Shown here piece after piece: positions 28,857 through 40,666 of a DNA stretch of 40,694 bases. Origin of the DNA: Sphaerobacter sp. (lineage in GTDB: Bacteria > Chloroflexota > Chloroflexia > Thermomicrobiales > Thermomicrobiaceae); NCBI RefSeq assembly GCF_019683595.1, contig NZ_JADGHZ010000014.1, positions 1 through 40,694 on the forward strand. The letters run 5' to 3'. Below the pieces are notes generated by a model. That model saw only the letters and a list, made by a program, of their open reading frames with translations. It ran no database searches and was not told where the DNA came from. Within the stretch, counting starts at the first letter, position 1. The number at the start of each line of letters is the position of its first letter. Both the position numbers and the translations under genes were made by a program.

Positions 28857-30179
28857 TCAGCGGACGGCGCGCGCCGCGGCGGCGACCAGGGCGACGGTCT
28901 GGTCGACGATCGCCTTGCGGTACTCCTCGAACACCGGGTCGGTGATCGCGGCCCGGTCCTCCGGGTAGACCAGCGATGCGATATGCAGGTGCCCGCCGGG
29001 GAGGTCATGCCGGCCGAGCGCCAGCCGCAGGCGGTTGGAGCGGTACATGCTCTCGTTGGAGAGGTAGTTGCCGCCACCGCCGGCGCAGGCGGCGTCGCCC
29101 GGATGCGGGCCGTCCTCGCGGGTGATGCAGGAGCCGACACCGGGGTTGCTCGGGTCGGGCCAGACGCGCACGCGCGTGTTCAGGAAGACGGGCCAGGGAC
29201 CGGTGCCGGCGTCGATCATGGCCTGGTAGGGCAGCGTTGTCTCGATGAACCAGGTCGGCTCCGGGGTCTGCGGCCAGTTCGCGGCCAGCGGGATCATGCC
29301 CTGGCTGCTGACGTCGTTGTTGTCCAGGCTGCCGCCGCGCCAGTTGCCGGCCCACTGCTCGATGGCCATCTGGCGCGCCCCGCCCTGGCTGATCGTCATC
29401 ATCAGATCGACCTGCCGCGGCCCCTCCATGAGGTGAGGGCCGAAGGCGTCCTCGACGATGCCCTCCTCGAAGGCACCCCAGAGCACCGGGAAGATCACCG
29501 CCTGGACGAAGGCCGGGCCGCTGTCGGTCTTGATGAGCAGGCCGTCGAGCTGCAGCGCGCTGGCGCCGGAGGGGTTGGAGCGGCGCGGCTCCTGGTTCAG
29601 GGTGTAGGGATCGAAGCCGCTGACAAGTACGCGCTTGACCCCCGCGCCGGCCGGGAAGTCGACCGAGGTGATGCCCCGCGAGGTGTACTCGAGCAACTTG
29701 ATCAACTCAGCACGCGCCTCGTCGCTGAGTGGAAAGGCCGGCGCCCACTGCCGCAGTGCCCGGGTCATGCTCAGGCGCGCCCAGTAGAGCGGCCGGTCGT
29801 CGTAGCGGTCGAGGGCGCCGTGGGCGGGGCCGCGCCCCTGAGCGCGGTCGACCGCCGCCCGCCACAGCGCCGTGCCCTGCGTGCGGACCATGTTCTCGGC
29901 CTGCTGCAGGTTCGGCGCCCGGCAGAGGCTGGTGATGAACTGGTCCACGAAGCGATCGAACCCACTGCGGGCAAGGATCTGCTGCGAGGCGGGCTCCGTC
30001 CCGCCCTCCGGAATCGCCTCCAGGCGCGTCTCTTCAACCGTCACGGGCAAGCTCTCGTCGAAACACTGGGCTGCTACCGGCCCCGAAGGGGCAGCGACCG
30101 CAGTCGCCGCGAGGGAGAGTACCAGACTCATGACAAGGAGGATAGTCCACACCGTCGCGCGGAATCGGGAATGCGCCAT
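28857..30179 (-). CDS. Exported pyroglutamyl-peptidase (C15)-like protein with Cys-to-Ser active site
   Basis: The protein has 440 residues. Residues 1-30 form a Sec signal (VWTILLVMSLVLSLAATAVAA). An extra region of about 150 residues follows. The C-terminal half then follows peptidase C15 order: KRVLVSGFDPYTLNQEP (183-198, compare GFEPFGG), SQGGARQMAIEQWAGN (E274 where the triad Glu stands), NYLSNESMYR (371-380) and GGHLHIASL (H399). The catalytic Cys of the YxCNxxxY motif is Ser374 here, while the Glu and His positions are kept. Pyroglutamyl peptidases are normally cytoplasmic and about 215 residues long. It may be a serine variant or a non-catalytic binding protein. The ATG at 30179 has GGGGAG upstream. 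Confidence 0.7.
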   Translation of the reverse strand: MAHSRFRATVWTILLVMSLVLSLAATAVAAPSGPVAAQCFDESLPVTVEETRLEAIPEGGTEPASQQILARSGFDRFVDQFITSLCRAPNLQQAENMVRTQGTALWRAAVDRAQGRGPAHGALDRYDDRPLYWARLSMTRALRQWAPAFPLSDEARAELIKLLEYTSRGITSVDFPAGAGVKRVLVSGFDPYTLNQEPRRSNPSGASALQLDGLLIKTDSGPAFVQAVIFPVLWGAFEEGIVEDAFGPHLMEGPRQVDLMMTISQGGARQMAIEQWAGNWRGGSLDNNDVSSQGMIPLAANWPQTPEPTWFIETTLPYQAMIDAGTGPWPVFLNTRVRVWPDPSNPGVGSCITREDGPHPGDAACAGGGGNYLSNESMYRSNRLRLALGRHDLPGGHLHIASLVYPEDRAAITDPVFEEYRKAIVDQTVALVAAAARAVR

Positions 30180-30343
30180 CGATCTCCCCTTCCCTCATCG
30201 TTGAAACCACGGTCGATCGGGGACGACGGCTACGCCGTGCCCGTAGGGGAGTCCGTCCCTCCTTTCGCAATGGTTGCTGTGAGACGACACGCCGATCAGA
30301 CCCTGCTGGCCTCAGAGGGCATGAGTTGGAAGCGTGTGAAGAC

Positions 30344-30372
30344 AGCATAGGGATTGACGGGATATCGTACAA
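30344..30372 (-). promoter_or_regulatory. Candidate promoter of the exported C15-like gene
   Basis: On the minus strand TTGTAC (30372-30367), a 17-base spacer and TATGCT (30349-30344) lie about 165 bases before the start at 30179. The match is moderate, but it stands in the most AT-rich part of the 517-base intergenic region. Confidence 0.4.
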
Positions 30373-30521: not shown

Positions 30522-30696
30522 GGGACAGGCCTAACAATCGAGTGATTCCTGCGCGTTCGGCACGTCCTACCGTTTCCGTTACCCATCCAAGCCTTGCGGT
30601 CCACGCTGCCGCGCCGTGTAGAGGGCTTCCGAGCCCCATCCGACCGTTTCCGGCGTGACCGGGCGCGCGGGTGGATCAGGTAGAGGAGCTCCAAGC

Positions 30697-31494
30697 GTGG
30701 CATCATCGACGCAGCCGCTCGCGACACCCAGCGAGGCCCGCCAGGCGATCCGCTCCGGTCAGATGCGCGGCCATACGGCCGCGGCCGCGCCAGGCTACGC
30801 GCAGGCAAACCTCGTCGTCCTGCCACGCGACCTCGCCTACGACTTCCTCGTCTTCTGCCATCGCAACCCCAAACCGTGCCCGCTGCTCGACGTGACCGAC
30901 CCCGGCTCCCCCGAGCCGGCTCGCGTCGCCCCCGGGGCCGACCTGCGAACCGACCTGCCGCGCTACCGGGTCTACCGGCACGGGGAGCTGGTCGAGGAAC
31001 GAGACGACCTGCTCGACCTCTGGCGCGACGATCTGGTGGCCTTCCTGCTGGGGTGCTCCTTCACCTTCGACGCCCTGCTGGTCGAGGCCGGGGTACCGGT
31101 GCGACACCTGGGCTGCGGCAGCAACGTGCCGATGTACCGGACGAATCAGGAGTGCGTCCCGGCGGGGCGCTTCGCCGGGCCGCTGGTCGTCTCGATGCGG
31201 CCGATCCCGCCGGAGCACCTCGTGCGGGCGGTGCAGGTGACCTCACGCTTCCCGTCGGTGCACGGCGCGCCGGTGCACATCGGCGACCCGGCAGTGCTCG
31301 GCATCACCGATCTGGCACACCCGGATTGGGGAGACCCGCCGGTCATCGAGCCGGGGGACGTCCCGGTCTTCTGGGCGTGTGGGGTCACCCCGCAGGCGGT
31401 GGCGATGAACGCCAGGCCGGAACTGATGATCACCCACGCGCCCGGGCACATGTTCATCACCGACGTTCCCGTCACGTCACTCGCGGTGTTCTGA
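30697..31494 (+). CDS. DUF1445 family protein (D-glutamate cyclase / YcsI-like putative hydro-lyase)
   Basis: The protein has 265 residues, the normal length of PF07286 proteins. The family opening [32 protein letters not shown] and [21 protein letters not shown] is unmistakable, as are [22 protein letters not shown] with VSMRPI, and the ending [11 protein letters not shown]. The start is the GTG at 30697, with GAGGAG eight bases upstream. The family is annotated as D-glutamate cyclase, forming 5-oxo-D-proline, by relation to the mammalian enzyme. Bacterial YcsI proteins often stand next to oxoprolinase or hydantoinase genes. The same link is seen here, with hyuA and hyuB in the same operon. 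The reaction in this organism is an inference. Confidence 0.85.
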
Positions 31495-31570: not shown

Positions 31571-33031
31571 ATGGACCACGAGCGTGCGACCCAGGGGATC
31601 GGAGACAAGGCGCTCGACGGGCGGCTTTCGCGGCGCCGGCTGCTGCGCCTGTTCGCGGCCGGAGCAGCGGTGCCGGCCATGAGCCTGCTGGCGGCCTGCG
31701 GTGAGGCCTCGGTCGGAGAGAGCGGCGGCAGCAGCGGTGGTCAGGCGGCTCCGACGGCGACCACGGCCGGCTCCGGCGCGTCCTCGGGCGGCAGTCCGGC
31801 CGCGTCGCCCACCAGCCAGGGTGGTACCTCCCCGTCGGGGCCGGTGCGCATCGGGGTGATCCTCCCGCTCAGCGGCGTGGCCGCCAGCGTCGGAGCCGAT
31901 GAGAAGGTCGCGGTGGAACTCGCCGTGAAGATCGTCAACGAGGAGACGCCCGACCTGGCCCTGCCGCTGGCAGCCACGGCGGGGCTGCCCAACCTGGGCG
32001 GGGCCACGGTCGAACTGGTCTTCGCCGACAGCCAGGGCAAGGCAGAGGTCGGCCAGTCGGAGGCCGAGCGGCTGATCAACCAGGAGAACGTCATCGCCCT
32101 CTTCGGCTGCTACCAGAGTGCCGTGACCAAGACGGCCAGCGCCGTCGCCGAGCGGGCCGGCATCCCCTTCATGAACGGTGATTCGTCGTCCCCGGCACTG
32201 ACCGAGAGCGGCTACCAGTGGTTCTTCCGCACCTCGCCCCACGACGGCGACTTCTCCAAAGCCATTATGGCGTTCATCCGGGCCATGGCCGATGAGAAGG
32301 GTGCGGACGTCAGCACCGTGTCGCTGCTGTACGAGGACACCGACTTCGGCGTGAACAGCGCCAAGGCCCTCACCGATGAGGCCGAGGCGCACGGCCTCCA
32401 GATCGTCGGTGAGGTGAAGTACAAGGCCAACACCACCGCGCTGACCAGCGAGGTGCAGGCCCTGCGCTCGCAGGGCGCCGACGTGCTGTGCCCGGCCTCC
32501 TACACCAACGATGCGATCCTCACCATTGAGACGGCCCGGCAGCAGGGGTACCTCCCGAAGATGATCGTGGCCCAGGACGCCGGCTACACCGACCCGGCCT
32601 TCATCGAGGGAGTCGGCGCCGCCTTCGCCGAAGGCATCGCCAGCCGCTCGGCCTTCTCGATCGACATCACCGAGATCAAGCCGGCCGCGGCCAAGGTCAA
32701 CGAGATGTACCGGGAGATGGCGGGAAAGGACATGTACGACGGGCCGGCACGCTGCTTCACCGCCATGATCGTGCTGCTCGACGCCATCAACCGGGCCGGA
32801 TCGACCGAGCCGGACGCGATCCGCGAAGCGCTGGAGGCGACCGACCTGGGGGCGGACGACACGATCATGCCCTGGCAGGGGGTCCGCTTCGACGAGAAGC
32901 ACCAGAACATCCTGGGGGGCGGCATCATCGTGCAGATCCAGAACGGCGAGTACCGCACCGTGTATCCCTTCGAGGTCGCCACGGTGGAACCGAGCTACCC
33001 CCTGCAGCCGTGGGATCAGCGCGGCGCGTAG
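31571..33031 (+). CDS. ABC transporter substrate-binding lipoprotein (LivK-type, Tat-type signal)
   Basis: The protein has 486 residues. LSRRRLLRLFAAGAAVPAMSLLAAC (about 19-43) combines a twin-arginine motif with a lipobox. A Ser/Gly/Thr/Pro linker reaches residue 90. The type I binding fold begins PVRIGVILPLSGVAASVG, with ALFGCYQSAVTKTASAVAERAGIPFMN and LLYEDTDFGVNSAKAL as landmarks. It should bind the operon's substrate outside the cell. The ATG at 31571 has GGAGG four to five bases upstream. It follows the DUF1445 gene by 76 bases and is separated from livH by a hairpin. Its long linker and Tat signal differ from the Sec-type LivK of the first operon. Confidence 0.92.
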   Translation: MDHERATQGIGDKALDGRLSRRRLLRLFAAGAAVPAMSLLAACGEASVGESGGSSGGQAAPTATTAGSGASSGGSPAASPTSQGGTSPSGPVRIGVILPLSGVAASVGADEKVAVELAVKIVNEETPDLALPLAATAGLPNLGGATVELVFADSQGKAEVGQSEAERLINQENVIALFGCYQSAVTKTASAVAERAGIPFMNGDSSSPALTESGYQWFFRTSPHDGDFSKAIMAFIRAMADEKGADVSTVSLLYEDTDFGVNSAKALTDEAEAHGLQIVGEVKYKANTTALTSEVQALRSQGADVLCPASYTNDAILTIETARQQGYLPKMIVAQDAGYTDPAFIEGVGAAFAEGIASRSAFSIDITEIKPAAAKVNEMYREMAGKDMYDGPARCFTAMIVLLDAINRAGSTEPDAIREALEATDLGADDTIMPWQGVRFDEKHQNILGGGIIVQIQNGEYRTVYPFEVATVEPSYPLQPWDQRGA

Positions 33032-33105: not shown

Positions 33106-33990
33106 GTGGATACGACGCTCCTCCTGCAAGCGCTCACCAACGGCCTGCTGATCGGGATGGTCTACGCGCTCATCTCGGTCGGCCTGACGCTGATCTTCGG
33201 GCTGATGGAGATCGTGAACTTCGCCCACGGCGAGTTCCTGATGCTGGCCATGTACGCGGCATTCTGGGCCAGCGTGCTCCTCAACCTCGACCCGATGGTC
33301 TCGCTCCCGCTGACGGTCGGCGGGCTGGCCTTGCTCGGGCTCGTGACCTACCGGGGCATCATCGCCCAGATCCTGAACGCCCCGATGCTGGCGCAGATCT
33401 TCGCCACCTTCGGCCTGGGCCTCTTCCTGCGCGGTCTGGCGCAGTACCTCTGGTCGCCCAACTTCCGCACCATCGAGCGTCCCTGGCTCGGCCAGATCTC
33501 GGGCGGCACGGTCAACCTCGGCGGCGTCTTCCTCGGCGTGCCGCAGATCGCCGCGGCGATCCTGGCCGGCGTGGCCTTCGCCGCGCTCTACCTGTTCATC
33601 AGCCGGACACGCATCGGCCTCGCGCTCCAGGCGGTGGCGGAGGACAAATCGACCGCGGAGCTGATGGGGATTGACAGCCACCGGATGTTCGCCCTCGGCT
33701 GGGTGCTGGGCGGAGCCTGCGTCGGGGTGGCCGGCGCGGTGCTGGCCAGCTTCTACCCGATTACCCCGACGGTCGGCATCCTCTTCGCGCTCATCGCGTA
33801 CATCGTGGTGGCGCTCGGCGGCTTCGGCAGTGTGCCCGGAGCGCTGGTAGCCGGGCTCCTGGTCGGCCTGGTGCAGGAGGCGAGCCCGATCCTCTTCGGC
33901 GTCCCGACGACCTACAAGTACGCGGTCGTCTTCGCGCTCTACCTGGTCGTCGTCCTGATCCGGCCGCAGGGCCTGTTCGGCCGCTTCTGA
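33106..33990 (+). CDS. livH: Branched-chain amino acid-type ABC transporter permease (LivH)
   Basis: The permease has 294 residues. It starts ALTNGLLIGMVYALISVGLT and LIFGLMEIVNFAHGEFLML, the LivH opening. The loop RIGLALQAVAEDKSTAELMGID touches the ATPases, and the end VLIRPQGLFGRF is standard. The GTG at 33106 is preceded by GGAAGGA. It forms the second importer's channel with LivM, encoded 24 bases later by the preferred start. Confidence 0.93.
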   Translation: MDTTLLLQALTNGLLIGMVYALISVGLTLIFGLMEIVNFAHGEFLMLAMYAAFWASVLLNLDPMVSLPLTVGGLALLGLVTYRGIIAQILNAPMLAQIFATFGLGLFLRGLAQYLWSPNFRTIERPWLGQISGGTVNLGGVFLGVPQIAAAILAGVAFAALYLFISRTRIGLALQAVAEDKSTAELMGIDSHRMFALGWVLGGACVGVAGAVLASFYPITPTVGILFALIAYIVVALGGFGSVPGALVAGLLVGLVQEASPILFGVPTTYKYAVVFALYLVVVLIRPQGLFGRF

Positions 33991-34014
33991 GTCACGGGGA
34001 GGATGCAGGCATTC

Positions 34015-35112
34015 ATGACCACCGCGACGGCCCGCCCCATCAGGGCCATCCCGCGCTCCTGGATCGCGCTCGGCGTGCTTGCGCTCGCGTTGCTGGCACT
34101 CCCGCTGGTGCTGCGCAGCGACTCGCGTCTGAACATCGCGATCCTGGTCCTGGTCTACGCGGCCCTGGCGCAGGCGTGGAACATCCTGGGGGGATTCGCC
34201 GGGCAGATCTCCCTCGGCAATGCGGCCTTCTTCGGGATCGGCGCCTACACCTCGACGGTGCTGCTGTCACGCTGGGAGGTCACGCCCTGGTTGGGTATGC
34301 TGGCCGGCGCGCTCGTGGCGGCCATCTTCGCCGTCATCATCGGCTACCCGGTGTTCCGCCTGGGCGGCCACTACTTCGCCATCGCCACCATCGCCCTGGC
34401 AGAGATCGTCTATACCATCTTCAACGACTGGGAGTGGGTCGGCGGTGCCACCGGGATGCTCATCCCCTTCGCGCGGGACATCGAGACCGGGCGCCCCACC
34501 AACTCGCTCTACTACCTTCAGTTCAACCTGGGGAAGGCGCCCTACTTCTACATCGCCCTGGCCCTCGTCGTCCTGGTGACGGTCGTCACGGTCATCGTCG
34601 ACCGCTCCAAACTCGGGTACTACTTGCGGGCGATCAAGAACGATCAGGACGCGGCGCGGGCGCTTGGTGTCCACGTCCTGCGCTACAAGCTCATCGCCAT
34701 CGCTATCTCGGCCGCGTTCAGCGCCGTGATCGGCACCTTCTACGCGCAGTACCTCCTCTACATCGACCCGGAGACGACGATGCGCCTGGAGCTGTCGGTG
34801 CTCATCGCGCTGGTGGCCATCCTGGGTGGGGTCGGCACGGTGGCCGGGCCGCTCGTGGGCGCGGCGGTGCTCATTCCCGCCGCCGAGTTGACCCGGCAGC
34901 AACTCGGCGGCAGCGGCAACGCCATCGACCTCATCCTGTACGGCGCCCTGATCGTCCTGATCTCCATCTTCCAGCCCAACGGCCTCATGGGCCTGGTGCA
35001 GCGGCTGCGCCACCGCGGTGGCCCGCGCCCGACCGCGACCCCCACCGAGCAGCAGGCGACCGCGCGAGAGGAAGCACCGATGCTCGGCGGCTACGAGGAG
35101 GAGCGAGGCTGA
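34015..35112 (+). CDS. livM: Branched-chain amino acid-type ABC transporter permease (LivM)
   Basis: This permease has about 365 residues, with LAQAWNILGGFAGQISLGNAAFFGIGAYTS, the cytoplasmic loop KLGYYLRAIKNDQDAARALGV and the C-terminal VLISIFQPNGLMGLVQRL, all LivM hallmarks. Two starts compete. ATG 34003 directly abuts GGGGAGG, and ATG 34015 lies 12 bases after it. The second is preferred because a ribosome cannot use a site with no spacing. The end overlaps the livG ATG by one base (TGATG). Confidence 0.92.
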   Translation: MTTATARPIRAIPRSWIALGVLALALLALPLVLRSDSRLNIAILVLVYAALAQAWNILGGFAGQISLGNAAFFGIGAYTSTVLLSRWEVTPWLGMLAGALVAAIFAVIIGYPVFRLGGHYFAIATIALAEIVYTIFNDWEWVGGATGMLIPFARDIETGRPTNSLYYLQFNLGKAPYFYIALALVVLVTVVTVIVDRSKLGYYLRAIKNDQDAARALGVHVLRYKLIAIAISAAFSAVIGTFYAQYLLYIDPETTMRLELSVLIALVAILGGVGTVAGPLVGAAVLIPAAELTRQQLGGSGNAIDLILYGALIVLISIFQPNGLMGLVQRLRHRGGPRPTATPTEQQATAREEAPMLGGYEEERG

Positions 35113-35858
35113 TGGCGCTGCTGGAACTCGACGCCATTACCAAGCGGTTCGGCGGCCTGGTCGCGAACCACGAGGTGACCTTCCAGGTCGATCGCGGCGA
35201 GATCGTCGGGCTGATCGGCCCCAACGGCGCCGGGAAGACCACCCTCTTCAACTGCATTTCCGGCTTCTTCCCGCCGACGAGCGGGACCGTGCGCTTCGAC
35301 GGAACGGACGTGACCGGTTGGCCCGCCGAGCGCCTGGTGCACCAGGGGATGGTGCGGACCTTCCAGGTCGTACGCACCTTCCCGGACCTGACCGTCCGCG
35401 AGAACGTCATGATCGGCGCGTTTGCGCGGACCAACAGTGCATCCACCGCCCGGAAGATCGCCGACGAGATGCTGGAGTTCACCGGGCTGGCGCCGCGGGC
35501 GGACGTCCTGGGGGCGAACCTCCCCATCGCCCAGAAGAAGCGGGTGGAGCTGGCCCGCGCGCTGGCGACCGGCCCGCAGCTCCTCATGCTCGACGAGGTG
35601 ATGGCCGGGCTGACGCCCGCCGAGCGCGTGCAGGCGGTCGAGTTGATCCGCGCCATTCGGGCGCGCGGCATCACGGTGCTGCTGGTCGAGCACGTGATGG
35701 AGGTCGTCATGCCGATCTCCGACCGGGTGATCGTGCTTGACTCGGGCAGGAAGATCGCCGAAGGACCACCACAGGCGATTGTCGAGAACCCGGAAGTGAT
35801 CGCGGCCTACCTCGGCGAGAAGTACCGGCCGCGCCGGGAGGAGACAGGGGAGGGCTAA
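35112..35858 (+). CDS. livG: ABC transporter ATP-binding protein (LivG)
   Basis: The ATPase has 248 residues: Walker A GPNGAGKTT, the LivG insert GMVRTFQVVRTFPDLTVRENVMIG, signature LPIAQKKRVELARAL, Walker B LLMLDEVMAGL, and H-loop LVEHVMEVVM. LDEV in place of LDEP in Walker B is common in LivG. Its ATG overlaps the livM stop and its TAA overlaps the livF ATG, so the set is translationally coupled. The frame is open far upstream inside livM and that extension is not coding. Confidence 0.93.
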   Translation: MALLELDAITKRFGGLVANHEVTFQVDRGEIVGLIGPNGAGKTTLFNCISGFFPPTSGTVRFDGTDVTGWPAERLVHQGMVRTFQVVRTFPDLTVRENVMIGAFARTNSASTARKIADEMLEFTGLAPRADVLGANLPIAQKKRVELARALATGPQLLMLDEVMAGLTPAERVQAVELIRAIRARGITVLLVEHVMEVVMPISDRVIVLDSGRKIAEGPPQAIVENPEVIAAYLGEKYRPRREETGEG

Positions 35859-36565
35859 TGCTCCTCGAGGTGCGCCATATCGCCGCGTCGTACGACGGCG
35901 TGCCCGCGCTCCACGACGTCAGCTTCACCGTGGACGAGGGCGAGGTCGTGACGATCATCGGATCGAACGGCGCGGGCAAGACGACGACCATCCGCACCAT
36001 CTCCGGCCAGCTTCGGCCCGACCGGGGCGAGATCCTGTTCCGCGGCACCCGGATCGACGGGCTCCCCGCCCACCGGATCGCCGAAATGGGCATCGCCCAC
36101 GTGCCGGAGGGACGACGGCTGTTCAACCGGCTGACCGTGCTGCAGAATCTCCTGGTCGGCTCATTCACCCGCCGCGCCCGCGCCGAAGAGGACGCGATGC
36201 TGGAGCGGGTCTTCACGCTGTTCCCCCGGCTCAAAGAGCGGGCGAATCAGCGGGCGGGTACCCTCTCCGGCGGGGAACAGCAGATGCTCGCCATCGGGCG
36301 GGGCCTGATGCTGCAGCCGGTGATCTTGATGCTGGACGAGCCGTCGCTGGGACTGGCGCCGATGCTGGTGGATGAGATCTTCAACACGATCCGCCAGATC
36401 GCCCGGGAGGGCATGACGATCCTGCTCGTCGAGCAGAACGTGCGCGAGTCGCTGGAGCTCTCGGACCGTGCCTACGTCCTCCAGACCGGGACGACCGTCG
36501 CGGAGGGAACCGGGGCCGAGTTACTCGAATCCGAGATGGTGCGCCGGGCCTACCTCGGCCTCTAG
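35858..36565 (+). CDS. livF: ABC transporter ATP-binding protein (LivF)
   Basis: The ATPase has 235 residues: Walker A GSNGAGKTTT, signature LSGGEQQMLAIGRGL, Walker B LMLDEPSLGLAP, and VEQNVRESLELSDRAYVLQTG. The short length and the EPSLGLAP motif identify LivF. It closes the second importer. The 188 bases before hyuA hold no gene that I can recognise. Confidence 0.93.
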   Translation: MLLEVRHIAASYDGVPALHDVSFTVDEGEVVTIIGSNGAGKTTTIRTISGQLRPDRGEILFRGTRIDGLPAHRIAEMGIAHVPEGRRLFNRLTVLQNLLVGSFTRRARAEEDAMLERVFTLFPRLKERANQRAGTLSGGEQQMLAIGRGLMLQPVILMLDEPSLGLAPMLVDEIFNTIRQIAREGMTILLVEQNVRESLELSDRAYVLQTGTTVAEGTGAELLESEMVRRAYLGL

Positions 36566-36753: not shown

Positions 36754-38832
36754 ATGGACCGGAGACTGCGCGTCGGTATCGATATCGGGGGGACCTTCAC
36801 CGACCTGATCGTGGTCGATGACCAAACCGGCACCTTCTGGGTCGCCAAGACCCTGACCACCCCCGACGACCCGGCGGTCGGCGTGCGCCGCGCCCTGATC
36901 CAGGGGCTGGAACTCGCCGGGGCGCCGGCCGAGCAGATCCAGGCCGTCATCCACGGCACGACGCTGGTCACCAACGCGATCATCGAGCGCAAGGGGGACA
37001 AGACGGCGCTGGTGACCACCAAGGGTTTCCGCGACGCCATCGAGATCGCCCGCGAGCACCGCTTCGACATGTACGACATCTTCATCGAGCGGCCGAAGCC
37101 GATCGCGCCCCGGCGCCTGCGCTTCGAGATCGACGAGCGGCTGCTGGCCGACGGCACCGTCTACCGCCCGGTCGACCCCGCCGAGGTCGAGGCGCTGGCC
37201 GAGCGGCTGAAGCGCGAAGGGGTCGAGGCGGTCGCGATCTGCTTCCTGCACAGCTACCGCAACCCCGAGCACGAGCGGCAGGTCGCCGCCATCCTGGCCG
37301 AGCGCCTGCCCGGCGTCCGCCTCTCCCTCTCCTCGGAGGTGGTGGGCGAGATCCGGGAGTACGAGCGCACCTCGACCACGCTGGCCAACGTCTACGTGCA
37401 ACGCATCGTCGAGGGCTACCTGGACCGCCTTCAGCGCACCTTGACAGAACTCGGATCACAGGCACGGCTGCTGATCATGCTCTCGTCGGGTGGCATTTGC
37501 ACGGTCGAGACGGCCCGCCGCTTCCCGGTACGGCTAATCGAGTCGGGCCCGGCGGCGGGGGCGCTCGCGGCGGCTTACACCGGGCGGCTCGTGGGCACGC
37601 CGAACCTGCTGGCCTTCGACATGGGCGGCACGACCGCCAAGGTCTGCCTGATCGACAACGGCCGCCCGATGATTACGACCGAATTCGAGGTCGATCGCGT
37701 CTACCGCTTCAAGAAGGGGAGCGGCCTGCCGATCAAAGCCTCGTCGATCGAGATGATCGAGATCGGCGCGGGCGGCGGCTCGATCGCCCACATCGACCAG
37801 TTCGGCCTCATCAAGATCGGGCCGGACAGCGCCGGCTCGCAGCCCGGCCCCGCCTGTTACGGCCTGGGCGGCACCCGTCCGACCGTCACCGACGCCGACC
37901 TGGTGCTCGGCTACCTCGACCCGGACTTCTTCCTCGGCGGCGAGATGCGCATCAGCCGCGAGGCGGCCGAGGAGGCGATCGAGCGCGAGATCGCCCGGCC
38001 GCTCGGGATGTCGGTCGTGGAGGCGGCCTGGTCGATCCACCAACTGGTGAACGAGAACATGGCGAGCGCGGCCCGCATCCACGCGGTCGAGCACGGCAAG
38101 GACGTGCGCGCCTACCCGCTGTTCGCCTCCGGCGGCGCCGGGCCGGTGCACGCCTACCGGGTGGCCGAGATCCTGGGTGTGCGGCAGATCATCTGCCCCT
38201 TCGCCGCGGGCGTCGGCTCGACGATCGGCTTCCTGGCGGCGCCGCTGGCCTTCGACTTCGTACGCAGCGCCTACGCCCGGCTCGACCAGGTCGACTGGGA
38301 CACGATCAACACGCTGTACGCCGAGATGGAGGAGGAGGGCCGCGCGCTGCTCGCCGCGTCGGGCGTCCCGGCGGATCAGGTGACCGTGACCCGCACGGCC
38401 GACATGCGCCTGCTCGGCCAGGCGCACGAGATTAGCGTGCCGATCCCCCTCGGGGTGCTCGGCCCCGAGCGGGAGGAGGAGGTGCTGCGTGCCTTCGAGG
38501 AGGTCTACCGCGACCTCTACAAGCGGGCGCGGCCTGGCGTGCCGATCGAGATCATGAGCTGGCGGGTGCTGGTGTCCGGACCTGAGCCGGAGCTACGCCT
38601 GCGGCAGCAGGAGCAACTGGGCGGCCCACGCCAGAAGGGCGAGCGGCCGGTCTATTTCCCCGAGCTGGGCGGCTTCCACCCGACGCCGATCTACGACCGC
38701 TATCAACTTCGTCCCGGCGACTGCGTCGACGGCCCGGCCGTCGTCGAGGAGCGCGAGTCAACCGTCGTCGTCGGCCCCCGCGGCCACGCCACGGTCGACG
38801 AGCACTTGAATCTGGTGATCCGGTTGGGGTGA
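36754..38832 (+). CDS. hyuA: Hydantoinase A / 5-oxoprolinase-family subunit (HyuA)
   Basis: The protein has 692 residues and is the ATP-using half of the hydantoinase/oxoprolinase family. The ASKHA-type nucleotide motifs are VGIDIGGTFTDLIVVDD (phosphate 1, about 7-23), HGTTLVTNAIIERKG (about 69-83), LAFDMGGTTAKVCLID (phosphate 2, about 287-302) and FASGGAGPVHAYRVAEILGV (adenosine region). AAGVGSTIGFL and a beta-rich C-terminus follow. Members open 5-oxoproline, hydantoins, caprolactam or related lactams with ATP, or carboxylate ketones, as A/B pairs. With HyuB downstream and DUF1445 upstream, a lactam such as 5-oxoproline is the best guess. The start ATG has GGAG nearby. Confidence 0.9.
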   Translation: MDRRLRVGIDIGGTFTDLIVVDDQTGTFWVAKTLTTPDDPAVGVRRALIQGLELAGAPAEQIQAVIHGTTLVTNAIIERKGDKTALVTTKGFRDAIEIAREHRFDMYDIFIERPKPIAPRRLRFEIDERLLADGTVYRPVDPAEVEALAERLKREGVEAVAICFLHSYRNPEHERQVAAILAERLPGVRLSLSSEVVGEIREYERTSTTLANVYVQRIVEGYLDRLQRTLTELGSQARLLIMLSSGGICTVETARRFPVRLIESGPAAGALAAAYTGRLVGTPNLLAFDMGGTTAKVCLIDNGRPMITTEFEVDRVYRFKKGSGLPIKASSIEMIEIGAGGGSIAHIDQFGLIKIGPDSAGSQPGPACYGLGGTRPTVTDADLVLGYLDPDFFLGGEMRISREAAEEAIEREIARPLGMSVVEAAWSIHQLVNENMASAARIHAVEHGKDVRAYPLFASGGAGPVHAYRVAEILGVRQIICPFAAGVGSTIGFLAAPLAFDFVRSAYARLDQVDWDTINTLYAEMEEEGRALLAASGVPADQVTVTRTADMRLLGQAHEISVPIPLGVLGPEREEEVLRAFEEVYRDLYKRARPGVPIEIMSWRVLVSGPEPELRLRQQEQLGGPRQKGERPVYFPELGGFHPTPIYDRYQLRPGDCVDGPAVVEERESTVVVGPRGHATVDEHLNLVIRLG

Positions 38833-38835
38833 GCG

Positions 38836-38936
38836 GCCCTCACCCCCTGACCCCTCTCCCAAAGTTGGGAGAGGGGGACGGAGACGACGAGACACTCCCC
38901 TCTCCCAGAGTTGGGAGAGGGGCCGGGGGTGAGGGC
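38836..38936. repeat. 101-bp compound palindrome between hyuA and hyuB
   Basis: Outer arms GCCCTCACCCCC (38836-38847) and GGGGGTGAGGGC (38925-38936) are perfect. Inside are two consecutive hairpins, CCCCTCTCCCAA (38851-38862)/TTGGGAGAGGGG (38865-38876) and CCCCTCTCCCA (38897-38907)/TGGGAGAGGGG (38912-38922). It is two head-to-head copies of a unit found again after hyuB. It may slow transcription into hyuB or protect hyuA mRNA. Confidence 0.8.
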
Positions 38937-38956
38937 AGATAACGAATGAGGAGCCC

Positions 38957-40666
38957 ATGGCGCACGCATCGATCGACCCGCTGACGCTCGAAGTCTTCTG
39001 GAGCCGGCTGATCGCCGTGGTCAACGAGCAGGCGACCTCGCTGATCTGGAGCGCCTTCAGCCCCTCGGTCGCCGAGGCCGGGGATATCTCCGCCTGCGCC
39101 TTCGACAGCCGCGGCTACATGATTGCCCAGGCGGTGACCGGGACGCCCGGCCACATCAACTCGATGGCCCGCTGCATCCAGCACTTCCTCGACGCCTACC
39201 CGCTGGAGACGCTGGAGCCGGGTGACGTCCTGATCACCAACGACCCCTGGAAGACCTCGGGCCACCTGCACGACGTCACCATCGTCACGCCGATCTTCCG
39301 CAACGGCGAGGTCGTTGCCTTCTTCGGCAACATCTGCCACCTGGCCGACATCGGCGGGCGTCCCTTCTCGGCCGACGCGCGGGAGCTCTTCGAGGAGGGG
39401 CTGTTCATCCCGATGACGAAGCTCTTCATGGCCGGCAAGCCCAACGAGGAACTGCTCAAGATCATCCGCGCCAACGTCCGCGAGCCGGAGGCGGTCGTCG
39501 GCGACCTCTACGCCATGACCGCCGCCAACGATGTCGGCGGCGAGCGCCTGCTGGAGTTCATGGACGAGTTCGGCATGGAGCGCATCGAGCCGCTGGCCGA
39601 CGAGGTCATCAACCGATCGGAGCGCGCCATGCGCGAGGCTATCGCGCGCATCCCGGACGGGGTCTACCGCCACCAGGTCACCATGGACGGCTACGACCAG
39701 CCGGTCACGCTGGCGGTCGCGATCACGGTGCGCGGGAGCGACATGTTCATCGACTACACCGGCACCTCGCCCGAGAGCGACTACGGCATCAACGTGGTGA
39801 TGAACTACACAGAGGCCTACACCACCTTCGGCATCAAGTGCGCCCTGGTGCCGGACGTGCCGAACAACGAGGGCAGCTTCCGCCCGGTCCACATCACCGC
39901 GCCGGAGGGAAGCATCCTGAACTGCCGGCCGCCCGCGCCGGTGGCGGGGCGCCACATCATCGGGCAATGGCTCCCCGGCGTCGTGCACGGCGCACTGGCC
40001 CAGGCCATGCCCGACCGCGTGCTCGCCGAAGGGTCGCTCAACCTGTGGAGCACCCAGTTCACCGGCGTCGACCGCGACGACCGCCCCTTCACCATGCTCT
40101 TCTTCAACTCAGGCGGCATGGGCGCCCGGCCCAACAAGGACGGGCTCTCCAGCACCGCCTTCCCCTCCGGGGTAATGGGCACACCGGCCGAAATCGTCGA
40201 GGCACGCTCGCCCCTGATGATGGTCCGCCGCGAGTTCCGCACCGACTCCGGCGGCCCCGGCACCTACCGCGGCGGGCTGGGTCACTGGATGGTGATCCGG
40301 GGCGTCAATGCGGGCAAGCCCTACCGCTTCTCACCCTTCTTCGACCGGACCACCAACCCGGCAAGCGGATACCAGGGCGGCAAGAACGGCGCACCCGGCG
40401 TCTACGAACTGAGCGACGGTCGGCGGCCAAACCCCAAGGCGACGATCTGGGTCGATCCCGACACCGACATCATCATGGGCCTGCCCGGCGGCGGGGGCTA
40501 CGGCGACCCACTGGACCGCGACCCGCAGGCCGTCCGCGACGACGTGCTCGACGAGCTCGTCTCCCCCGAACGCGCCCGCGACGACTACGGCGTCGTCCTC
40601 ACACCCGACCTCGAGGTCGACTGGGAAGCGACCAACCGGCTGCGGGCCGAGCGGCGGGCGGGGTGA
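38957..40666 (+). CDS. hyuB: Hydantoinase B / 5-oxoprolinase-family subunit (HyuB)
   Basis: The protein has 569 residues. It follows the HyuB pattern from the start: DPLTLEVFWSRLIAVVNEQATSLI, SPSVAEAGDISACAFDSRG, NDPWKTSGHLHDVTIVTP (about 96-113), DYTGTSPESDYGINV, and the Gly-rich DSGGPGTYRGGLG and LPGGGGYGDP near the C-terminus. It works with HyuA in ATP-dependent opening of a lactam or hydantoin-type ring. The ATG at 38957 has GAGGAG close upstream, beyond the palindrome. The C-terminal segment VLTPDLEVDWEATNRLRAERR is complete, so the gene ends inside the window. Confidence 0.9.
   Translation: MAHASIDPLTLEVFWSRLIAVVNEQATSLIWSAFSPSVAEAGDISACAFDSRGYMIAQAVTGTPGHINSMARCIQHFLDAYPLETLEPGDVLITNDPWKTSGHLHDVTIVTPIFRNGEVVAFFGNICHLADIGGRPFSADARELFEEGLFIPMTKLFMAGKPNEELLKIIRANVREPEAVVGDLYAMTAANDVGGERLLEFMDEFGMERIEPLADEVINRSERAMREAIARIPDGVYRHQVTMDGYDQPVTLAVAITVRGSDMFIDYTGTSPESDYGINVVMNYTEAYTTFGIKCALVPDVPNNEGSFRPVHITAPEGSILNCRPPAPVAGRHIIGQWLPGVVHGALAQAMPDRVLAEGSLNLWSTQFTGVDRDDRPFTMLFFNSGGMGARPNKDGLSSTAFPSGVMGTPAEIVEARSPLMMVRREFRTDSGGPGTYRGGLGHWMVIRGVNAGKPYRFSPFFDRTTNPASGYQGGKNGAPGVYELSDGRRPNPKATIWVDPDTDIIMGLPGGGGYGDPLDRDPQAVRDDVLDELVSPERARDDYGVVLTPDLEVDWEATNRLRAERRAG

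Follow-up and report, generated by a model that had tools for sequence, protein, structure and literature searches.

The window, by which we mean the whole stretch of 40,694 nucleotides of Sphaerobacter sp. analysed here, carries on its minus strand an ORF that opens with ATG and encodes P0001, a protein of 440 residues, in divergent orientation to an operon of transporter and hydantoinase/oxoprolinase-type genes (Table 1). A large antisense ORF at 28983-30350 (+) overlaps the gene and looks like a high-GC shadow frame. Comparison with a second genome of the genus yielded a dN of 0.010 and a dS of 0.080 (dN/dS ~0.13), indicating that the gene is under purifying selection. A preliminary description of this DNA had proposed that the motifs of pyroglutamyl peptidase I (Pcp; family C15) occur in P0001 in the correct order, preceded by an export signal and an extra N-terminal part. 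These features are all found in the 440-residue ORF: residues ~9-30 are hydrophobic and signal-peptide-like (core ~11-29; judged by eye), a helical domain of 140 residues follows, and GFDPY (188-192), NPSG (202-205), E274, TLP (315-317), YLSNESMY (372-379) and GHLH (396-399) succeed one another in this order.

Table 1. Features of the exported gene and of the divergent operon, in window positions.
Feature	Position	Strand	Basis
Exported serine-type C15-like protein P0001, 440 aa	28857..30179	(-)	ORF, family, predicted structure
Signal-peptide-like N-terminus, residues 1-30	30090..30179	(-)	Translation judged by eye; pLDDT low at 1-30
N-terminal helical domain, residues 38-176	29652..30068	(-)	Alignment and separate model
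Cys39, predicted disulfide partner of Cys86	30063..30065	(-)	Co-occurrence in the 50-member family alignment
Cys86, predicted disulfide partner of Cys39	29922..29924	(-)	Co-occurrence in the family alignment
C15-fold domain, residues 179-440	28860..29645	(-)	VIA-align and hhalign
Glu274, counterpart of the Pcp catalytic Glu (E79 of L119)	29358..29360	(-)	Profile alignment; invariant 50/50
Ser374 (TCC), where Pcp has its nucleophile Cys (C142 of L119)	29058..29060	(-)	Profile alignment; invariant 50/50 and in all loci checked
His399, counterpart of the Pcp catalytic His (H166 of L119)	28983..28985	(-)	Profile alignment; invariant 50/50
D-glutamate cyclase family gene (PF07286, YcsI-like), divergent neighbour	30655..31494	(+)	Pfam E 6.7e-68
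Liv-type periplasmic binding protein	31571..33031	(+)	Pfam E 1.5e-55
Two Liv-type permeases	33106-33990, 34003-35112	(+)	Pfam
Two Liv-type ATPases	35115..36565	(+)	Pfam, NCBIfam
Hydantoinase/oxoprolinase-type ATP-dependent lactamase, subunits A (36754-38832) and B (38957-40666)	36754..40666	(+)	Pfam, NCBIfam

Taken alone, the match of P0001 to the Peptidase_C15 model (PF01470) was marginal: it covered residues 182-289 only, with an E value of 0.0027 and 18.2 bits, and fell below the curated cut-off of 22.7 bits. Examination of the family gave a clearer picture. The model was matched by 46 of the 50 members of our family alignment (best E 1.6e-7), and a distant member encoded on pOXA436 scored 33.7 bits with it. 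Profile-profile alignment (hhalign) of the 50-member alignment with a profile built from ten canonical C15 proteins was colinear across residues 181-400 (E 1.7e-10) and paired S374 with C142, E274 with E79 and H399 with H166 of Pcp (L119 numbering), indicating that Ser374, Glu274 and His399 had correctly been assigned to the catalytic positions in the preliminary description. The NPS, DN and TLP motifs of Pcp also lined up in this alignment, and the Cys at the nucleophile position was invariant in the ten canonical rows. An AlphaFold2 model built on the family alignment reached a pLDDT of 92.5, and the comparison with Pcp structures that had been proposed as a check found the C15 fold. The best PDB match in VIA-align was 5z48, the Deinococcus pyrrolidone carboxyl peptidase bound to pyroglutamate (Z 20.8, rmsd 2.8, 202 residues aligned); the first 22 rows were all Pcp with Z of 17.1-20.8, and the next fold had a Z of 10.2. 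In Foldseek, the Deinococcus pyrrolidone carboxylate peptidase alone was matched with E <0.001 (E 6.6e-11, prob 1.00). In the model, S374 begins helix 373-387 and H399 lies near the end of strand 395-400. Searching the PDB sequences with the single protein (phmmer) returned nothing useful, while the family profile recovered Pcp weakly.

The relation to C15 is secure by the family-level evidence, i.e. PF01470 in 46 of 50 members, the profile-profile alignment and the fold matches, and residues 179-440 are predicted to adopt the pyroglutamyl peptidase I fold. Since P0001 misses the PF01470 cut-off and lacks the defining Cys, we did not file it as a C15 cysteine peptidase; it is a serine-type branch of the C15 fold. 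With pyroglutamyl peptidase I (MEROPS C15, clan CF, PF01470) it has in common the fold, the Glu, the His and the NPS/DN/TLP/YL-x-N motifs. It differs in its exported-type N-terminus, its ~140-residue helical domain, longer inserts and a length of 440 residues, whereas canonical C15 proteins are single domains of about 200-220 residues without an export signal, and in all family members examined Ser replaces the nucleophilic Cys.

Scanning one genome per species revealed at least 577 confirmed genome stretches that match the family (search alignment: P0001 and eight plasmid relatives), a count that could be biased because one of the two patterns used contained the Ser (the DDRxLYW pattern did not); the best 80 of these stretches were kept for locus work. 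Profile searches of Actinomycetota and Bacilli genomes that did not select for Ser recovered Ser members only. The eight relatives had been detected by tblastn against plasmids, with identities of 28-46%; they belong to Actinomycetota, Betaproteobacteria and Bacteroidota or lie on a Shewanella-type segment of an Enterobacter plasmid, and the nucleophile position is Ser (YLSNE) in all eight. Invariant in the 50-member alignment are S374, N375, E376, E274, H397, H399, N202, P203 and G205 as well as the motif D127-D128-R129...L131-Y132-W133.R135; E376, R380, H397 and DDRxLYW.R are family-specific invariants that the canonical C15 proteins do not all share. The question of whether the Ser is fixed, raised with the preliminary description, was thus answered by its presence together with Glu and His in 50 of 50 rows of a widespread form. 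By these alignments Ser374 is a rule of the family and no local mutation. It is refuted in practice that the ORF is decaying or spurious and resembles C15 by chance: the single-sequence Pfam score under the cut-off would fit, but the structure, the profile alignment, the size of the family and the low dN/dS all argue against it.

The family was present in ~2% of the genomes sampled in each of two groups, with 6 of 296 Actinomycetota and 6 of 300 Bacilli genomes positive (the centre genome counted in each). Among the Chloroflexota genomes searched, the gene was found in two genomes of the window's genus only, with proteins 98% identical; other Chloroflexota matches were short chance matches and were rejected. 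No member was detected in the virus contigs searched, and the window's own genome carries no canonical C15 gene above cut-off. Bacillota rows are nearest to P0001 in the tree, which is consistent with lateral transfer; the placement of plasmid rows is unreliable due to their long branches. One Bacilli member (L132/L133, G944:C3:142234-142522) consists of two pieces in different frames, with YLSNESHY and GHLH, and is a frameshifted copy or a sequencing error. Some members are already named 'pyroglutamyl peptidase' in databases. Among the open-licence papers searched, none remarks on the Ser of the family, on its export or on its link with 5-oxoproline genes, and none on a serine-type pyroglutamyl peptidase was found there.

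The N-terminal helical domain, modelled alone, reached a pLDDT of 94.1 and contains invariant W106, DDR (127-129), LYW (131-133), R135 and R168. Searched by itself it matched no Pfam family and gave no convincing PDB match in Foldseek (best E 0.93); the VIA matches, to designed helical proteins, reached a Z of 8.6 at most, and no assignment was made. Cys39 and Cys86 are both present in 40 of the 50 rows, and none of the rows with letters at both sites carries one Cys alone. This pattern makes a Cys39-Cys86 disulfide likely, and in an exported protein with such a bond the co-occurrence is as expected. The oxidising surroundings in which an exported protein with a disulfide would work are a plausible reason for a Ser where Pcp has its nucleophilic Cys. 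Canonical Pcp is not known to stay active when its catalytic Cys is changed to Ser, so that the scaffold would have to differ for Ser to work. E376, R380 and DDRxLYW.R are candidates for making Ser work on a Pcp-like scaffold, and the N-terminal domain may cover the active site or govern specificity. Cys-free mutants of Pyrococcus furiosus Pcp (e.g. 1x12, with YLSN at the catalytic site) carry an engineered Cys-to-Ser change on the same fold.

The starts of the exported gene and of the divergent cyclase-family gene are separated by 475 bp. The latter also matches NCBIfam PRK05463, 'putative hydro-lyase', with 425.6 bits, over the cut-off, and a promoter scan of the region placed a single sigma-70-like site ahead of this operon. 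The LivG-like ATPase is encoded in the 3' portion of ORF 34176-35858, with an approximate start, and the LivF-like ATPase at 35858-36565. Subunit A of the lactamase matches PF05378, PF01968 and PF19278. The best NCBIfam models for the A/B pair were caprolactamase alpha and beta, at 557.7 and 225 bits, far under their 1000-bit cut-offs; by its sequence matches the pair is an ATP-dependent lactamase of the 5-oxoprolinase superfamily. The operon lacks PxpABC, and PxpA is found on another contig of the same genome. The Liv-type binding protein is a candidate for binding 5-oxoproline or a similar lactam; it has a homologue (E 5.9e-92) in a pxp-containing locus (L033), in which the Liv homologue sits between PxpA and PxpBC. 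Over the part compared, gene order in this region is colinear between the two genomes of the genus.

PxpABC is a 5-oxoprolinase, and C. glutamicum needs PxpT, of the YcsG family, for growth on 5-oxoproline (PMC13274462). We searched the loci of relatives with a marker set of PxpA/B/C, YcsG/PxpT and D-glutamate cyclase (E <1e-15) and found one or more of the markers within ~6 kb at 23 of 80 genome-contig loci, in at least seven gene arrangements. Control DNA taken from four genomes that carry the family (400 kb) contained none of them. PxpA has ~1.2 matches per genome of ~6 Mb, giving a chance expectation of ~0.3% of loci. In Fictibacillus the exported gene lies between PxpA and cyclase (YcsI-like)-YcsG-PxpC-PxpB, in Streptoalloteichus and Pseudokineococcus it precedes YcsG-PxpA-PxpB-PxpC on one strand, and in Blastococcus it follows the same four genes. 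The Plantactinospora locus reads PxpA-exported gene-Liv system-PxpB-PxpC, its Liv system being homologous to that of the window. In Umezawaea PxpA is immediately upstream of the exported gene, and in the Lentzea group it is ~2.9 kb off on the opposite strand. The gene names at these loci rest on phmmer against the Fictibacillus proteins, with PxpA confirmed by PF03746 at the genome level; the Fictibacillus proteins themselves were assigned by sequence recognition and by comparison with the set pxpA-ycsG-ycsI-pxpBC of B. subtilis. On the tree, the marker label makes 11 changes, confined to the clade of P0001 and Bacillota, and the Streptomyces-type clade (31 genome loci) has no pxp neighbours. 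We set aside the LivF matches seen at certain Streptomyces loci, since generic ABC ATPases gave matches in the control DNA too. In one Streptomyces genome that carries the exported serine form, a canonical Cys C15 gene lies ~2.5 kb from PxpA (G463 contig C107, 278010-281868, L107), so that either form may be found close to 5-oxoproline genes. At 16 loci (L033, L059-L085; Lentzea group and Plantactinospora), PxpA and the exported gene have a gene for a GntR-like regulator nearby, identified by sequence look in the part of the neighbour clustering that was examined; it recalls PxpR, which senses 5-oxoproline in C. glutamicum.

Relatives of P0001 are found inside or beside clusters of the type of pxpTABC of C. 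glutamicum and pxpA-ycsG-ycsI-pxpBC of B. subtilis. In the window, the divergent neighbour of the exported gene is a YcsI-like cyclase gene. In comparison with pxpTABC, the window has a Liv transporter in place of PxpT and a Hyu-type lactamase in place of PxpABC; the C. glutamicum system as described in PMC13274462 is without an exported peptidase. The link to pyroglutamate that the preliminary description had suggested from the DUF1445-Liv-Hyu operon is borne out by the PF07286 neighbour, the Liv-type transporter, the lactamase and the loci of relatives.

We consider it probable that P0001 is an exported hydrolase with a serine nucleophile (Ser374, His399, Glu274) that releases pyroglutamyl ends and frees pyroglutamate for import and ring-opening. 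The protein would strip N-terminal pyroglutamate from blocked peptides outside the membrane via an acyl-enzyme at Ser374, with His399 acting as the base and Glu274 orienting His399. The freed 5-oxoproline would be imported by the Liv-type transporter in the window, and by YcsG/PxpT or Liv elsewhere, and an ATP-dependent lactamase, the Hyu pair in the window and PxpABC in other genomes, would open it to glutamate. Several points count against this reading: a Cys-to-Ser change is not known to leave canonical Pcp active, the window operon is without PxpABC, its Hyu pair is nearest to caprolactamase and under the cut-offs, the Streptomyces-type clade has no pxp genes nearby, and others have described YcsG as an importer of Mn2+ (PMC10448178).

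The preliminary description had left two readings side by side, a serine-nucleophile variant and a binder or sensor. That Ser is fixed along with both Glu and His speaks for catalysis rather than for binding alone. It is quite unlikely that P0001 is an exported pseudo-enzyme that catches pyroglutamyl ends or free 5-oxoproline for a transporter or regulator: a swap of Cys for Ser commonly inactivates Cys peptidases, and GntR-like regulator genes were seen near relatives, but a binder offers no evident reason for invariant Ser, Glu and His across Actinomycetota, Bacillota and Chloroflexota, and the adjoining transporter has a binding protein of its own. Also unlikely, though slightly less so, is an active serine hydrolase of the C15 fold that serves lactam or glutamate catabolism with another lactam-ended or amide substrate, such as a D-pyroglutamyl peptide, a pyroglutamyl ester or amide, or another omega-amide. 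The fixed triad fits such an enzyme, and so does the presence of E376, R380, H397 and DDRxLYW.R, which are not invariant in canonical C15; the D-glutamate cyclase family gene and the caprolactamase-like pair of the window suggest that the lactam need not be L-5-oxoproline. The retention of the NPS, DN and TLP motifs of the Pcp fold and the partnership at many loci with PxpABC, a 5-oxoprolinase, speak against a different substrate.

Many peptides owe their protection from ordinary aminopeptidases to a pyroglutamate cap, and the enzyme known to remove it in bacteria is a cysteine peptidase of the cytoplasm. If the family is active in the release of pyroglutamate as we favour, it supplies an exported deblocking enzyme for pyroglutamyl peptides, completes a salvage route with known uptake and ring-opening steps, and offers a natural Cys/Ser pair on one scaffold for studying the change of nucleophile; new peptidase and Pfam entries would be called for, as the members examined match the C15 model weakly. 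Because pyroglutamate-consuming genes adjoin the gene in many bacteria, this large and little-studied exported family probably harvests pyroglutamate as a nutrient outside the cell. Natural waters have been assayed for pyroglutamyl aminopeptidase activity (PMC5845674), and among the open-licence papers searched none names an exported bacterial enzyme as responsible. Clan CF is described as consisting of one family, C15, with a Glu-Cys-His triad (PMC12445089). On balance we lean slightly towards the view that P0001 represents a serine pyroglutamyl peptidase, i.e. a natural Cys-to-Ser change of nucleophile in this single-family clan, fixed in an exported, disulfide-bonded branch of several phyla with an attached domain without recognised fold, and that it would perform the extracellular first step of a full pyroglutamate salvage (deblocking, uptake, ring-opening).

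Two distant members are found in other genetic settings. On a plasmid of Tenacibaculum finnmarkense (CP116296.1; L020, 3389-5173) the serine C15-like part and a DDRPLYWAR helical domain form the C-terminal part of a 594-aa protein. Its gene directly follows those for TssD and a phage baseplate protein V, which suggests that the protein may be cargo of a contractile injection system; E274 is replaced by Asp. A published listing of PVC-SS and polymorphic toxin domains includes domains of the C15 type (PMC3482391). Together with the Tenacibaculum gene order, this listing is in line with an antagonistic or peptide-inactivating exoenzyme that deblocks pGlu-protected peptides of competitors, with nutrient salvage as secondary. 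We regard such a role as very improbable for P0001, since the Tenacibaculum member belongs to a distant branch with Asp for E274, and the window gene has no secretion-system neighbours and lies beside a catabolic operon. The second setting is that of blaOXA genes. A 'peptidase C15' orf beside blaOXA-48-like genes of Shewanella, mentioned as a gene-context label in PMC3480492, is a branch of the same serine family. The member adjacent to blaOXA-436, known by this name in the Shewanella contexts, reads YLSNEISY and is ~30% identical to P0001, and its locus is without 5-oxoproline genes; it is a 'hypothetical protein' carried with blaOXA-436 on the conjugative plasmid pOXA436 (L021, 3839-4996, NZ_KY863418.1).
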